The position numbers were made by a program, and so were the translations under genes. The notes under the pieces are model-generated. The model had not been told where the DNA came from, did not search any database, and worked only from the letters and a program-made list of their open reading frames with translations. From an uncultured Bacteroidales bacterium (GTDB lineage Bacteria; Bacteroidota; Bacteroidia; Bacteroidales; JACABE01), in the NCBI GenBank assembly GCA_903899825.1, contig CAIUKU010000287.1, positions 1 to 32,445 on the forward strand: a stretch of DNA of 32,445 bases, written 5' to 3'. Shown in pieces: positions 8,917-24,297 of this stretch (its first letter is position 1; every line of letters begins with the position of its first letter).

Positions 8917-9618
8917 ATGGGATTGATAATATTGATAGAAACAGCTACAGAAGTTTGTTCTGTGGCGCTGGCCAAGGACGGGCAATTGATTTCATTAAGA
9001 GAAATATCCGATGGCAATTCGCACTCAGCCAATGTGGCCGTTTTTTTGGATGAAGTGTTGAAAGAAGCTGGAAAAATACCCAAAGACCTGGATGCAGTGG
9101 CTGTGAGCAAAGGACCCGGTTCCTATACCGGTTTGCGCATCGGTGTATCTTCAGCCAAAGGCTTAAGTTACGGACTCAGCATTCCCCTCATTTCTATCAA
9201 CACCTTAAAATCAATGTGCAAAGGTGTTTTAGAAAAACATAAAGCAACTGATCATTCTGCTTTTTTCTGTCCCATGATAGATGCCCGCAGAATGGAAGTT
9301 TACAGTGCTTTTTACGATGGAAAGCTGCAGATGATCCGTGATGTTCAGGCTGATATCGTGGACGAAAACAGCTATGAGGAATACCTGGCACAACATCCGG
9401 TTTACTTTTTCGGAAATGCTGCTTTAAAGTGCAAAGAAGTATTATCTAAACATCCCAATGCCTTTTTTATTGAAGATATTCAGCTTTCTGCTGCAAACAT
9501 GGCTGAGCTTGCCGAGGAAAAATACAAGCAAGCTGCATTTGAAAATGCTGCCCGGTTTGAACCTTTTTACCTGAAAGATTTTATTGCTGCTAAAGCGGTT
9601 GTGAAAGGGTTATATTAA
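8917..9618 (+). CDS. tsaB: tRNA threonylcarbamoyladenosine biosynthesis protein TsaB
   Basis: TsaB is the partner of TsaD in making the t6A modification at position 37 of ANN-decoding tRNAs. The 233-residue product has the ASKHA-fold N-terminus (ILIETATEVCSVALAKDG, residues 4-21). It has the diagnostic SKGPGSYTGLRIG stretch (about 64-76), which gives the dimer interface with TsaD. It begins 9 bases after the stop of the adaptor gene, so it is probably co-transcribed with the exporter genes. That pairing looks like genomic convenience rather than shared function. The start at MGLIILIET is well placed for the first strand. Confidence 0.96.
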   Translation: MGLIILIETATEVCSVALAKDGQLISLREISDGNSHSANVAVFLDEVLKEAGKIPKDLDAVAVSKGPGSYTGLRIGVSSAKGLSYGLSIPLISINTLKSMCKGVLEKHKATDHSAFFCPMIDARRMEVYSAFYDGKLQMIRDVQADIVDENSYEEYLAQHPVYFFGNAALKCKEVLSKHPNAFFIEDIQLSAANMAELAEEKYKQAAFENAARFEPFYLKDFIAAKAVVKGLY

Positions 9619-9815
9619 GGTTAAAGTAAAAAGGATAAAGTAAAAAGTTTTAAGTTGAACAAAGTTTTAAGAAATGAAAGAAAGTTTTAAGTTAAAGAAA
9701 GTTTTAAGTTTTAAGAAAAACAACACCAACTTAACACTTCTATCACTTAACACTTAACACTTTCCGCCGCAAGGCGGACTTAACACTTAAGATTTAACAC
9801 GTATTAAATATTCCG
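9619..9815. repeat. Degenerate word-repeat spacer with GCAA hairpin
   Basis: The first half (9619-9720) is made of AAAGTTTTAAG-like words and the second (9729-9799) of CTTAACACTT-like words, which are partly complementary to the first. Between the later copies sits a perfect 6-bp hairpin, TCCGCC (9763-9768) and GGCGGA (9773-9778), closed by a GCAA tetraloop. The 15-mer ATAAAGTAAAAAGTT (9635-9649) recurs exactly at 24269-24283. No coding sequence was seen. Confidence 0.6.
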
Positions 9816-16414: not shown

Positions 16415-16624
16415 AAACTGGAGTACTTAAAGTGCCTAAAGTACTTAGAGTACTTAAAGTTAAAAAATCCTTGAGTTCATTTAACAAAACAGGAAATATT
16501 ACCCATTATCATTTTAGAACAAATAAAATTCAATTTGCTTTTTTTTGTCTGAATTAAGCTAAACAAATAGATGCATTTGATGTTTTTAATTTACAAAAGA
16601 TTGTTCATAAGAAAACAATCCATT

Positions 16625-17572: not shown

Positions 17573-17604
17573 GAACGCGGATGACGCGGATACCTTCGGC
17601 AAAC
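17573..17604 (+). repeat. Left arm of 32-bp inverted repeat flanking the GxxExxY pseudogene
   Basis: This starts GAACGCGGATGACGCGGATA and matches the reverse complement of 18018-18049 at 30 of 32 bases, including the first 24 without a mismatch. A third copy, in the orientation of the right arm, lies at 22553-22584 (29 of 32). The arm is GC-rich against an AT-rich background. Confidence 0.9.
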
Positions 17605-17622
17605 ACGGATTAAACCGATTTT

Positions 17623-18012
17623 ATGGAAATATTAAACAAAGAATTAACAGATTGCATATTAAAGGTTTTTTATGACGTCTATAATGAACTTGGTTATGGT
17701 TTTCTTGAAAAAGTTTACCAAAATTCAATGTATATTGAATTATGTTCACGTGGTTTTAAGGTTGAAGCTAATAAACATATAAAAGTTTATTATAAGGAAA
17801 TAGAAGTAGGTGTATATTATGCTGATTTGTTAGTTGAAAATACTGTAATTTTAGAATGAAAAGCTGCTGATGTAATTGTTAATGAATTTGAATATCAATT
17901 ATTAAATTATCTGCGAGCTACAAATATTGAGGTTGGGCTTATGCTTAACTTCGGAATTAAGCCAGCGTTTAAAAGAAAAGTTTTTGATAATTTAAGAAAG
18001 CATCAGCGATAA
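17623..18012 (+). pseudogene. GxxExxY protein (PD-(D/E)XK nuclease-like), broken by an in-frame TGA
   Basis: The frame reads 78 codons from ATG 17623 to TGA 17857-17859. It then continues in the same frame to TAA at 18010-18012, for 129 codons in total, the usual family size. The family signature is present as GFLEKVY (G-x-x-E-x-x-Y, residues 27-33). The nuclease-like core follows: Asp in YYADLL, then E-stop-K where intact members have E-L-K. Changing one base (TGA to TTA, Leu) restores the motif. The rest (KAADVIVNEFEYQLLNYLRA, then GLMLNFG and RKVFDN) is well conserved. TGA ends other genes here (for example at 24879 and 30618), so general recoding is unlikely. The gene lies between near-perfect 32-bp inverted repeats, suggesting a mobile or formerly mobile cassette. 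The function of the family is unknown to me. Confidence 0.85.
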
Positions 18013-18017
18013 TCAGC

Positions 18018-18049
18018 GTTTACCAAAGGTATCCGCGTCATCCGCGTTC
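18018..18049 (-). repeat. Right arm of 32-bp inverted repeat flanking the GxxExxY pseudogene
   Basis: Reverse-complementary to 17573-17604 at 30 of 32 positions; the differences are two C/T changes near the inner end. It begins 5 bases after the pseudogene's final stop and ends 39 bases before the ATG of the OmpA-family gene, so it also forms that gene's upstream region. Confidence 0.9.
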
Positions 18050-19415: not shown

Positions 19416-22400
19416 ATGATAATAAAAATGAGTAAATATTTCCTGCCATTTCTTATGTACTTATCTTTTTCCATCTCATTGCTGGCGGGCAATCCCTATG
19501 CCGGTAAAACCAAAGAAGCCAAAGCAAGGGAATTCCTCAAAAACCAACCCCTTGAATTTATTGAAAACAAAGGCCAATTTACAAATACCGATGGAAATGC
19601 AGCAGACAATGTGCTGTTTAAAACTTCTTTTGGTAATTGCGATATTTACATTACCGATAAGGGCTTGAGCTATGTGTTTGTGAAGATGGAAGCAGAAAGA
19701 CCGAAGTCAGAAAGACCGAAGTCAGAAGATCGAAGTCAGAAGATCGAAGTCAGAAGACTAAAGACGGAAGACCGAAATCCCGCATTTGGAGAAAAGGAGA
19801 AAGAAGAAAACAGAAAAGTATCCTACTACCGCTTAGATATGGATTTAGTTGGAGCCAATATCGTGAAATCCAATATCATCAAAGAAGAAGAAAGTATACA
19901 GGGACATTTTAATTATTTTTATCCCCATTGTCCCCAGGGAATTTATGATGTGAAGGCTTATGGCAAGATTACGATCAAAAACATTTACAAAGGCATAGAC
20001 TGGGTGATTTATACCAATGCTGACTCTAAGGACCATCCCCTGAAATACGATTTTGTAGTACATCCCGGTGCTGATTATAAAGCTATTCAAATAAAATTCC
20101 TGAATGCTCAAAGCACAAGCCTCACAGATAACGATACCAAGCTTAAAATACAAACTATTGCAGGGAATATTGAGGAGGGGAATCTGTATTCCTACTTAAT
20201 AAATGAAAAAACAGAAGTAACGACCAATTATGTTATTTCAGCTGATTCCACCATCTCATTTAAGATGGCAGATTACGATAGTTCGAAAATCTTAATCATT
20301 GATCCATTGGTTTGGGCTACGTATTATGGGGGGACTGTTACAGACTTTAATTCAATTAGTATTGACAATAAAGATAATATATATATAACTGGGAGTAATC
20401 ATTCAACCGACTTTCCAACGCAACATTTAACTGGTGCATATTGGCAAGCAAATAGTGCTGGTGGAATTCCAGGCCATAATGTTGATTTATTTATATTAAA
20501 ATTTGACTCTTTAAATGTCAGACAATGGGCTACATATTATGGCGGAACGGATATTGATGCAGCTTTATCTATTTGTACAGATAGTTTAAATTATATTTAT
20601 ATTACCGGAGATACATATTCTACAGATTTTCCTACACAACAGTTAACAGGAGCTTATTGGCAATCTTCATTTTCCGGTGGATTTGGAGATGTATTTATTC
20701 TGAAATTTAATAATCAGGGAGTAAGACAATGGGCAACATATTATGGTGGTAATGCACAAGATGGTGCAACATCAATTCTTACTGATAATCAAGGGAATCT
20801 GTACATAACAGGAGGTACTACTTCTCAAGATTTACCCACACAACAATTAACTGGTGCGTATTGGCAAGCAACAAATGTGGTAAATTATAGCAATGTATTT
20901 ATATTAAAATTTAATTATCAAGGAGTGAGGCAATGGGCAACTTATTATGGAGGTGAAGGTGCAACCGGATATTCGATGTGTATTGACAGTCAAAATAATC
21001 TTTTTATTACAGGAGTGGCTGGCTCCAACTTTCCAACTCAACAATTATCTGGTGCATATTGGCAAGCGAATAGTGGGGGTGTTACAAATGCTTTTATTTT
21101 AAAGTTTAATAATCAAGGTTTAAGATTATGGGCTACATATTATGGAGGTAATGGCGGAATTATGGGTGATTGTGCTCAAGCAATTTGTGCTGATAGCCAT
21201 GATAATATATTTATTACTGGATTTACTGGCTCAACAAATTTCCCAATCCAACAATTTCCTGGTGCTTATTGGCAGGACACAATGAAAAGTAATACAGTGA
21301 ATATTTTTATTTTGAAATTCAATAATCAGGGAGTAAGACAATGGGCTACCTATTATGGTGGAAGTTCTGTAGATTATTTTAATGATTGTTATGATAAAAT
21401 AATTTGTGCTGATAAGCAAGATAATATTTATATCACAGGATTAAGTTGCTCTCAGGATTTTCCGGTTCAACTATTATCTGGTGAATATTTTCAAGTAAAT
21501 GATAATGGTGTAGCAAAATCTTTTATACTTAAATTTTGCAATTCTGGTGTTAGGCAATGGGCAACATTATACGGCACTGGTGATGGAGCATACGGTAGAA
21601 GTATTGCTGTTAACAGTCAAAATTCTGTTTTTTTTATTGGCTCAAGTTGGGGGCCTGGTTTATATACAATGAATCCAGGTAATGGAGCATATTTCAATAA
21701 TATTTTTGGAGGTATACATGATAGTTATATTATTAAAATGAATTTTTTAAATAACCCATATATTAATAATTACAAACCAACTTCATTACAAGCAAATAAA
21801 AATAATATTTGCAGGAATGATAATGGTAACCTAATTTTAAATGCTTTTGGGGGATCAGGAGGAATATTAAAATGGTATATAGGTGGATGTGGTCTAAATT
21901 ATATCGGTATGGATACTGTTTTAACATTGCCTTTCCCAACACAAACAACTACATACTTTGCTCGTTGGGAAATCGGCTGCAATTTTAGTTCTGATTGTGA
22001 TAGTATTATTATTAAAGTCAAACCATCACCAATGATTAACTTAGGAGGTGATACAATATTATGTCAAGATTCACCTTTTTTGCTAAATGCAACATACCCA
22101 AATGCATCATATTTATGGCAGGATAATTCAACGAATCCAACTTTCAATGTCAGCCAACAGGGATTATATTGGGTAAAGACAACAATTGACAGTTGCAGCA
22201 GTATAGACAGTATAAATATTATTATTGAAGATTGTGAAATTATTTTGGAAATTCCTAACTTTTTCTCTCCGAATAATGATGATGTAAACGATGTGTTTCA
22301 TCCTTCAAAAATAAAAGGAATTTTATCAATGCATACCATGATTTATAACCGATGGGGGAATTTGGTGTTTACTACAGATGAATTGTCCATAAAATGGGAT

Positions 22401-22517
22401 GGAAAAACAAACAAAGGAGATCAGGTGGCGGATGGGGTGTATTATTGGATTGTAAATTATAGTGATAGAAATGGAATAACTGCAAGCAAAAATGGTTCAG
22501 TAACAGTGCTCAGGTGA
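19416..22517 (+). CDS. Large secreted SBBP beta-propeller protein with type B sorting domain
   Basis: The 1033-residue product begins with a signal peptide (residues about 1-25). An N-terminal domain typical of this family follows (FIENKGQFTNTDG, then FGNCDIYITDKGLSYVF). Seven repeats of about 68 residues come next, each opening with a WATYYGG motif (coding near 20314, 20527, 20730, 20934, 21129, 21342 and 21558, the last WATLYGT) and carrying DNIYITG and TDFPTQQLTGAYWQ elements. Seven copies fit one seven-bladed propeller. Two Ig-like modules follow; the second (INLGGDTILCQDSPFLLNA, YLWQDNS) resembles one in the protein at 10771. The CHU_C sorting domain (EIPNFFSPNNDDVNDVF, YNRWGNLVF) ends it. 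Residues about 93-122 come from a 14/15-nt repeat array. The ligand or role is unknown; adhesion is a common guess. Confidence 0.9.
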   Translation: MIIKMSKYFLPFLMYLSFSISLLAGNPYAGKTKEAKAREFLKNQPLEFIENKGQFTNTDGNAADNVLFKTSFGNCDIYITDKGLSYVFVKMEAERPKSERPKSEDRSQKIEVRRLKTEDRNPAFGEKEKEENRKVSYYRLDMDLVGANIVKSNIIKEEESIQGHFNYFYPHCPQGIYDVKAYGKITIKNIYKGIDWVIYTNADSKDHPLKYDFVVHPGADYKAIQIKFLNAQSTSLTDNDTKLKIQTIAGNIEEGNLYSYLINEKTEVTTNYVISADSTISFKMADYDSSKILIIDPLVWATYYGGTVTDFNSISIDNKDNIYITGSNHSTDFPTQHLTGAYWQANSAGGIPGHNVDLFILKFDSLNVRQWATYYGGTDIDAALSICTDSLNYIYITGDTYSTDFPTQQLTGAYWQSSFSGGFGDVFILKFNNQGVRQWATYYGGNAQDGATSILTDNQGNLYITGGTTSQDLPTQQLTGAYWQATNVVNYSNVFILKFNYQGVRQWATYYGGEGATGYSMCIDSQNNLFITGVAGSNFPTQQLSGAYWQANSGGVTNAFILKFNNQGLRLWATYYGGNGGIMGDCAQAICADSHDNIFITGFTGSTNFPIQQFPGAYWQDTMKSNTVNIFILKFNNQGVRQWATYYGGSSVDYFNDCYDKIICADKQDNIYITGLSCSQDFPVQLLSGEYFQVNDNGVAKSFILKFCNSGVRQWATLYGTGDGAYGRSIAVNSQNSVFFIGSSWGPGLYTMNPGNGAYFNNIFGGIHDSYIIKMNFLNNPYINNYKPTSLQANKNNICRNDNGNLILNAFGGSGGILKWYIGGCGLNYIGMDTVLTLPFPTQTTTYFARWEIGCNFSSDCDSIIIKVKPSPMINLGGDTILCQDSPFLLNATYPNASYLWQDNSTNPTFNVSQQGLYWVKTTIDSCSSIDSINIIIEDCEIILEIPNFFSPNNDDVNDVFHPSKIKGILSMHTMIYNRWGNLVFTTDELSIKWDGKTNKGDQVADGVYYWIVNYSDRNGITASKNGSVTVLR
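19694..19779 (+). repeat. Tandem 14/15-nt repeat array within the coding sequence
   Basis: Six units run end to end: AGAAAGACCGAAGTC twice (15 nt), AGAAGATCGAAGTC twice (14 nt), then the degenerate AGAAGACTAAAGAC and GGAAGACCGAAATC (14 nt each). Because 14 is not a multiple of three, successive units are read in different frames (ERPKS, ERPKS, EDRSQ, KIEVRR, and so on), giving a charged low-complexity segment. Gain or loss of a 14-nt unit would shift the frame. Confidence 0.9.
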
Positions 22518-22552
22518 TTCAGTAATAAATTATAAAATCCGTGATTATCCTC

Positions 22553-22584
22553 GTTTACCGAAGGTATCAGCGTCATCTGCGTTC
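22553..22584 (-). repeat. Solo copy of the 32-bp repeat that flanks the GxxExxY pseudogene
   Basis: On the minus strand this matches 17573-17604 at 29 of 32 bases. Similarity continues outside it (GTGATTATCCTC here, CGATAATCAGC before the right arm). It stands without a GxxExxY gene and 24 bases before the methyltransferase ATG. It shows that the element is a dispersed repeat, either a remnant of a lost cassette or an independent unit. Confidence 0.85.
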
Positions 22585-23414: not shown

Positions 23415-23472
23415 ATAATCACTAAATCACTAAATCACCAAATCACCAAATCAATATAACGCCAAATCAAAA
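23415..23472. repeat. AAATCACC/AAATCACT word repeats
   Basis: Several near-identical octamers (TCACTAAA and TCACCAAA types) run in tandem between the methyltransferase and the ABC ATPase gene. They look like another degenerate intergenic word array and not like spaced CRISPR repeats. Confidence 0.5.
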
Positions 23473-24239: not shown

Positions 24240-24297
24240 GAAAAAGGTTAAAGGTTAAAGTTTAAAGTATAAAGTAAAAAGTTAAAGTTTTTAGAAA
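24240..24297. repeat. AAAGTT-word spacer related to 9619-9720
   Basis: A run of GGTTAAAGTTTAAAGT-like words follows the ATPase stop. The 15-mer ATAAAGTAAAAAGTT at 24269-24283 is identical to 9635-9649 in the spacer before the Usp gene. This indicates a repeat family shared by distant intergenic regions. Confidence 0.55.

Follow-up and report, generated by a model that had tools for sequence, protein, structure and literature searches.

Does a small nuclease-like gene enclosed by inverted repeats in an uncultured Bacteroidales bacterium form a mobile unit, and does its protein act on the repeats that flank it? The question is raised by positions 17573-18049 of the stretch analysed here (the window, 32,445 nucleotides). 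An earlier note, made from the sequence alone, had described 32-bp inverted arms around a GxxExxY frame broken by a single TGA. It inferred a small mobile or formerly mobile unit, recently inactivated, whose protein may act on its own flanks. The arms, gaps, frame and TGA were confirmed in every detail. The arms at 17573-17604 and 18018-18049 agree at 30 of their 32 bases, with inner gaps to the frame of 18 and 5 bases, and a repeat search lengthens the pair to 17573-17612 and 18010-18049 (40 bp, 90% identity), the right arm then overlapping the stop codon of the pseudogene. Scored as an ungapped inverted repeat, the cassette flanks reach 26, whereas none of 300 shuffles exceeded 11.

The left arm (17573..17612, plus strand) consists of two CRCNGAT units (ACGCGGATG and ACGCGGATA), a mini-hairpin (ACCTTCGGC, 17592..17600, plus strand) and two more units. 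In the inverted right arm (18010..18049, minus strand), the mini-hairpin at 18022..18030 is ACCTTTGGT on the minus strand and reads ACCAAAGGT on the plus strand. The arms end in GAACGC and GCGTTC, without a GTAG-tagged repeat end. The neighbours of the cassette are protein genes, xth-like upstream and ompA-like downstream. The cassette folds strongly as RNA (z -7.5), and an Rfam search of the window gave no match.

The enclosed frame (17623..18012, plus strand, 129 codons) is a pseudogene of the GxxExxY family of PD-(D/E)XK nuclease-like proteins, based on the TGA at codon 79 (17857..17859, plus strand), between Glu78 and Lys80 of the E-x-K motif; a sequencing error at 17857 remains possible. 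Intact relatives mostly have Leu at this position. The family assignment made earlier held, with matches to the profiles TIGR04256 (E=2.3e-35, 121.4 bits for a curated cut-off of 35) and PF13366 (PDDEXK_3; E=1.2e-36, 126.1 bits for a curated cut-off of 22). The active-site residues E29, D68, E78-x-K80 and Q92, nearly invariant in the family (Glu78 and Lys80 included), are all present, the frame being broken at codon 79. The structure predicted for the read-through protein has a pLDDT of 92.6, and the solved structures closest to it are Cas4 SSO0001 (E 1e-4, Z 9.5), LHK-Exo and lambda exonuclease, with Hjc resolvases lower down. Cas4, lambda exonuclease and Hjc share the D, E-x-K and Q-x3-Y motifs, but identity is only ~15% and the GxxExxY protein stands alone at ~125 aa. 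A sequence search of the PDB found no real match, none being better than E 0.38. Structure matches of this size, resting on a predicted model, support a PD-(D/E)XK fold and no particular activity.

The dN/dS ratio is 0.20 between the window copy and the intact copy of a congener, and 0.02-0.15 for other GxxExxY pairs. Such low values (0.02-0.20) indicate that the protein matters and that the nonsense codon is recent, or is a sequencing error. The recent inactivation proposed in the earlier note thus fits the ratio of 0.20, the otherwise intact frame and the existence of further decayed GxxExxY copies, with the same reservation about 17857.

Evidence for mobility came from comparing filled and empty sites by flank matching, global alignment being uninformative. 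The xth-like and ompA-like genes are adjacent without a cassette in three congeners (G001, G002 and G003), and likewise in G004, of the same family. G003 carries a cassette with an intact frame at an unrelated place (G003:C24). Its homology to the window cassette starts at AACGC in the left arm, which marks the mobile unit's outer end there, and runs to GCGTTC in the right arm. Four more GxxExxY loci of the genome were examined (C38, C18, C93 and C439), and for each of them at least one congener has a cassette-free counterpart; at the C18 and C439 sites the cassette is present in G001 but missing from G002 and G003. A lack of occupied/empty polymorphism would have refuted the earlier proposal. 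This was checked in the congeners and is not what we see, since all five loci (5/5) are polymorphic. On one Scalindua contig, two cassettes are 90% identical, with no homology beyond the arms. Copies that carry the gene reach only to the arms and have no MITE ends. Some cassettes in Flavobacterium are vertically inherited at one site. No target-site duplication was recognised at the junctions read, the empty sites being too diverged.

As a block, the arm-to-arm unit is either there or missing; it turns up at unrelated sites, and many of its relatives have no gene. That it is a mobile unit is very likely, and the proposal of a small mobile or formerly mobile unit is supported by the empty sites and the arm-bounded homology. 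Searches of phage records gave no GxxExxY match, and only 8 plasmid records had one. A tandem pair of GxxExxY cassettes (loci L183 and L196, G111:C4:68683-69764) was also seen, with 94% identity over 906 bp.

What the earlier note had not foreseen is that the arm copies in this genome are mostly gene-less palindromes. With the cassette as query we found at least 26 matches, among them the cassette's own and one at another GxxExxY gene; with up to 3 mismatches allowed, the arm pattern gave at least 38 matches and its reversed control none. As search results, these numbers are lower bounds. Most copies are gene-less palindromes of ~100-130 bp or half-arms, such as the lone arm of the same family at 22532..22584 of the window (minus strand), which has no gene. 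Each arm has a mini-hairpin between two pairs of units. The mini-hairpin sequences differ (ACGTTCCGT, CCCTAAAGGG, TTCTAAAGAA, CCCGAAGATTCGGG), yet 21 of 29 distinct forms are self-complementary (stem of at least 3 pairs), against 1.7 expected. Varied but self-complementary mini-hairpins suggest that the arms are recognised as folded single strands, or that palindrome-templated mutation is at work. RNA folding of a gene-less copy gave z -9.1. Several gene-less cores are centred in larger MITE-like palindromes (~270 bp, with ends TAAGTAGTAAAC), so mobilisation by another enzyme is still possible. In G003, several gene-less CRCNGAT palindromes lie in tandem (L149:4520-5200, on contig C6), with an N run between copies.

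Across many phyla, inverted arms flank 33 of 52 GxxExxY loci and none of 152 control ORFs, an arm being called where the score exceeded that of every control. A Bacteroidota sample not picked by similarity to the window gene gave 46/77 for GxxExxY genes against 8/83 for controls. The arms follow a common grammar of inverted tandem C-R-C-N-R-A-(G/T) units, each of 9-10 bp. Such CRCNRAK tandems flank 46 of 135 GxxExxY genes on both sides, but 0 of 169 controls (p=4e-19). The exact form of the motif was phrased after viewing the loci and is thus fitted, and the fair comparison is with the control ORFs and with the wrong-orientation counts (12 on both flanks); in a few of the 135 rows, a single gene is counted again as a duplicate or split frame. 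Arm sub-type tracks protein relatedness for 45 of 52 nearest neighbours, a result matched by none of 5000 shuffles, which could possibly stem simply from joint inheritance. Arms scattered through genomes with no link to GxxExxY genes would have spoken against the earlier proposal; this is not the case, and the association holds across phyla.

At the level of genomes, a GxxExxY gene is found in 59 of 118 sampled Bacteroidota, and the arm pattern in 17/59 with the gene against 5/59 without it (p=0.008, with no correction for phylogeny or genome size). Five genomes therefore have the arm pattern and no GxxExxY gene, and for about one third of GxxExxY genes the arms are undetectable. In one spirochaete genome a two-unit pattern gave 458 loose matches, and the control 92. 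Separately, the Bacteroidota genome G066 holds 129 copies of the two-unit arm pattern, many of them 75-bp palindromes, and 4 GxxExxY genes.

A parallel set of cassettes was found around four-helix-bundle genes (TIGR02436, S23/IVP-like), of which this genome has 14. Inverted arms surround 28 of 42 such genes, compared with 3 of 23 controls, and are built of 7-bp units in 16 of 22 cases, private to each cassette. CRCNRAK units were found around none of the 42 four-helix-bundle genes, and no 7-bp period was seen among 22 GxxExxY arms. Each protein family therefore pairs with its own arm kind, and the two arm types are unmixed. The absence of CRCNRAK arms around the 42 four-helix-bundle genes rules out the gene as freely exchangeable cargo. 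At one orthologous site, the four-helix-bundle genes of G000 and G001 differ, as do their units, and in G002 the site is empty.

The best-supported mechanism is a minimal selfish element whose movement is driven by the GxxExxY nuclease, although we consider it as likely to be wrong as right: the role of the nuclease is inferred, and its activity, its binding to the arms and transposition are all undemonstrated. The element would consist of one PD-(D/E)XK nuclease gene at the apex of a palindrome, its arms being tandem 9-10-bp CRCNRA(G/T) units with small hairpins. The nuclease would recognise the arm units, probably as an extruded or single-stranded hairpin, and cut at the element ends, and the unit would be excised or copied into new intergenic sites via host repair. 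Gene-less palindromes would be passengers mobilised in trans, and the window copy, its active site lost, would now persist only as a palindrome. The evidence named for this model is the empty sites, the arm-bounded homology, the association of arms with GxxExxY genes across phyla and genomes, the arm/protein specificity, the compensated mini-hairpins, the fold and dN/dS. Weighing against it are the gene-less cores within MITE-like palindromes that a different transposase may move, the GxxExxY genes without arms, the five genomes with arms only, the vertical inheritance in Flavobacterium and the possible joint inheritance of arm and protein types. An action of the protein on its own flanks, as suggested earlier, is not shown, and rests on the specificity of arm type for protein family and on the fold.

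A possible alternative is that MITE or REP-like palindromes are moved by an unrelated host transposase, the nuclease gene being a passenger with another function (e.g., repair or defence). In its favour, several different longer palindromes, among them a family with terminal repeats TAAGTAGTAAAC, have a gene-less core at their centre; the gene is absent from most copies; and strong purifying selection would fit a host function too. Against it, gene-bearing copies stop at the arms and lack MITE ends, the association spans many phyla, and each protein family has its own arm unit and period, which GxxExxY and four-helix-bundle cassettes do not exchange.

An RNA-level element resembling the intervening sequences of 23S rRNA is unlikely. 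Here the arms would pair in the transcript, RNase III or the encoded protein would process the gene loop, and spread would occur through recombination or reverse transcription. The very strong RNA folding of both the gene-less element and the cassette, the compensated hairpins, and the occupation of parallel cassettes by four-helix genes of the S23/IVP type, which 23S rRNA intervening sequences are known to carry (PMC4990558), are in line with it. However, good RNA folding is expected of any palindrome, the window cassette lies between protein genes and has no reverse transcriptase, and the closest folds are DNA exonucleases. Least credible are static regulatory hairpins or bidirectional intergenic terminators that trapped a gene by chance; the intergenic location and strong hairpins would suit them, but the empty counterparts, the unrelated sites and the cross-phylum tie to one gene family do not.

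The selfish-element reading invites comparison with known systems. REP/BIME palindromes with RAYT (REPtrons; PMC3733652) likewise join a small gene to a flanking palindromic repeat that is also scattered gene-less, with conserved hairpin structure. They differ in having an HUH tyrosine transposase and a GTAG end, whereas the only gene of the cassette is PD-(D/E)XK, with a Cas4/RecB-like fold, and lies inside the palindrome, between arms of tandem 9-10-bp units. The 23S rRNA intervening sequences with an S23/IVP four-helix-bundle ORF, as in Coxiella (PMC4990558), are also short selfish units with an ORF between inverted arms; the cassette lies outside rRNA, encodes another protein and has arms built from microrepeats. 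MITEs and small insertion sequences share the terminal inverted repeats, short length, intergenic location and gene-less derivatives, but the cassette has no DDE transposase and its junctions, where read, showed no recognisable target duplication. The cassette thus works like REP/RAYT or MITE systems, lacks defining features of REP/RAYT and has no known transposase. In the literature searched (subscription papers and curators' notes excluded), GxxExxY and PF13366/PDDEXK_3 are barely mentioned and such cassettes are undescribed. The recurrence across phyla of GxxExxY genes with palindromic arms of 9-10-base repeats suggests a class of minimal mobile element that is little described, with the window copy as a freshly broken example. 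The link to a mobile palindrome gives a testable job to a widespread family of unknown function and, if the nuclease-driven reading is true, a Cas4/RecB-fold nuclease joins the enzymes able to drive a minimal element.

In a bolder reading, towards which we lean slightly less than against, the Cas4-fold nuclease and the unrelated four-helix-bundle protein would each define an undescribed class of minimal mobile element, with inverted arms that are self-renewing short tandem repeats of protein-specific period (9-10 bp or 7 bp). If true, many intergenic repeats across bacterial phyla, both short tandem and palindromic ones, that are so far unexplained would originate from these elements. Heptamer repeats (TAACTGA) in Beggiatoaceae, cyanobacteria and Bacteroidota are of unexplained origin, and 'no mechanism is evident' for their spread (PMC4679880). 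They too are short intergenic tandem units, patchy across phyla, but were reported as direct repeats without an associated gene, whereas the 7-bp units here form inverted arms of four-helix-bundle cassettes. Those cassettes offer a concrete origin for intergenic heptamer repeats.

Several short arrays were also noted in the window. Gene-less inverted heptad arrays (AAGTTTTAAGTTAAAG and ACTTAACACTTAAC) at 9617-9800 resemble arms of a four-helix-bundle cassette whose gene was lost or never present. The solo 9-mer array at 16422-16460 has the unit AGTACTTAA, which also forms the arms of the four-helix-bundle cassette L035 and a G001 array at the empty xth-ompA site. Solo arrays of AATCACCA and AAAGGTT, at 23417-23453 and 24243-24290, match the arm units of C407 and L039, two four-helix-bundle cassettes in this genome. 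Finally, a 7/14-bp tandem array at 19682-19776 lies inside the ORF 19416-22517 and is translated (RPKSERPKSEDRSQK...).
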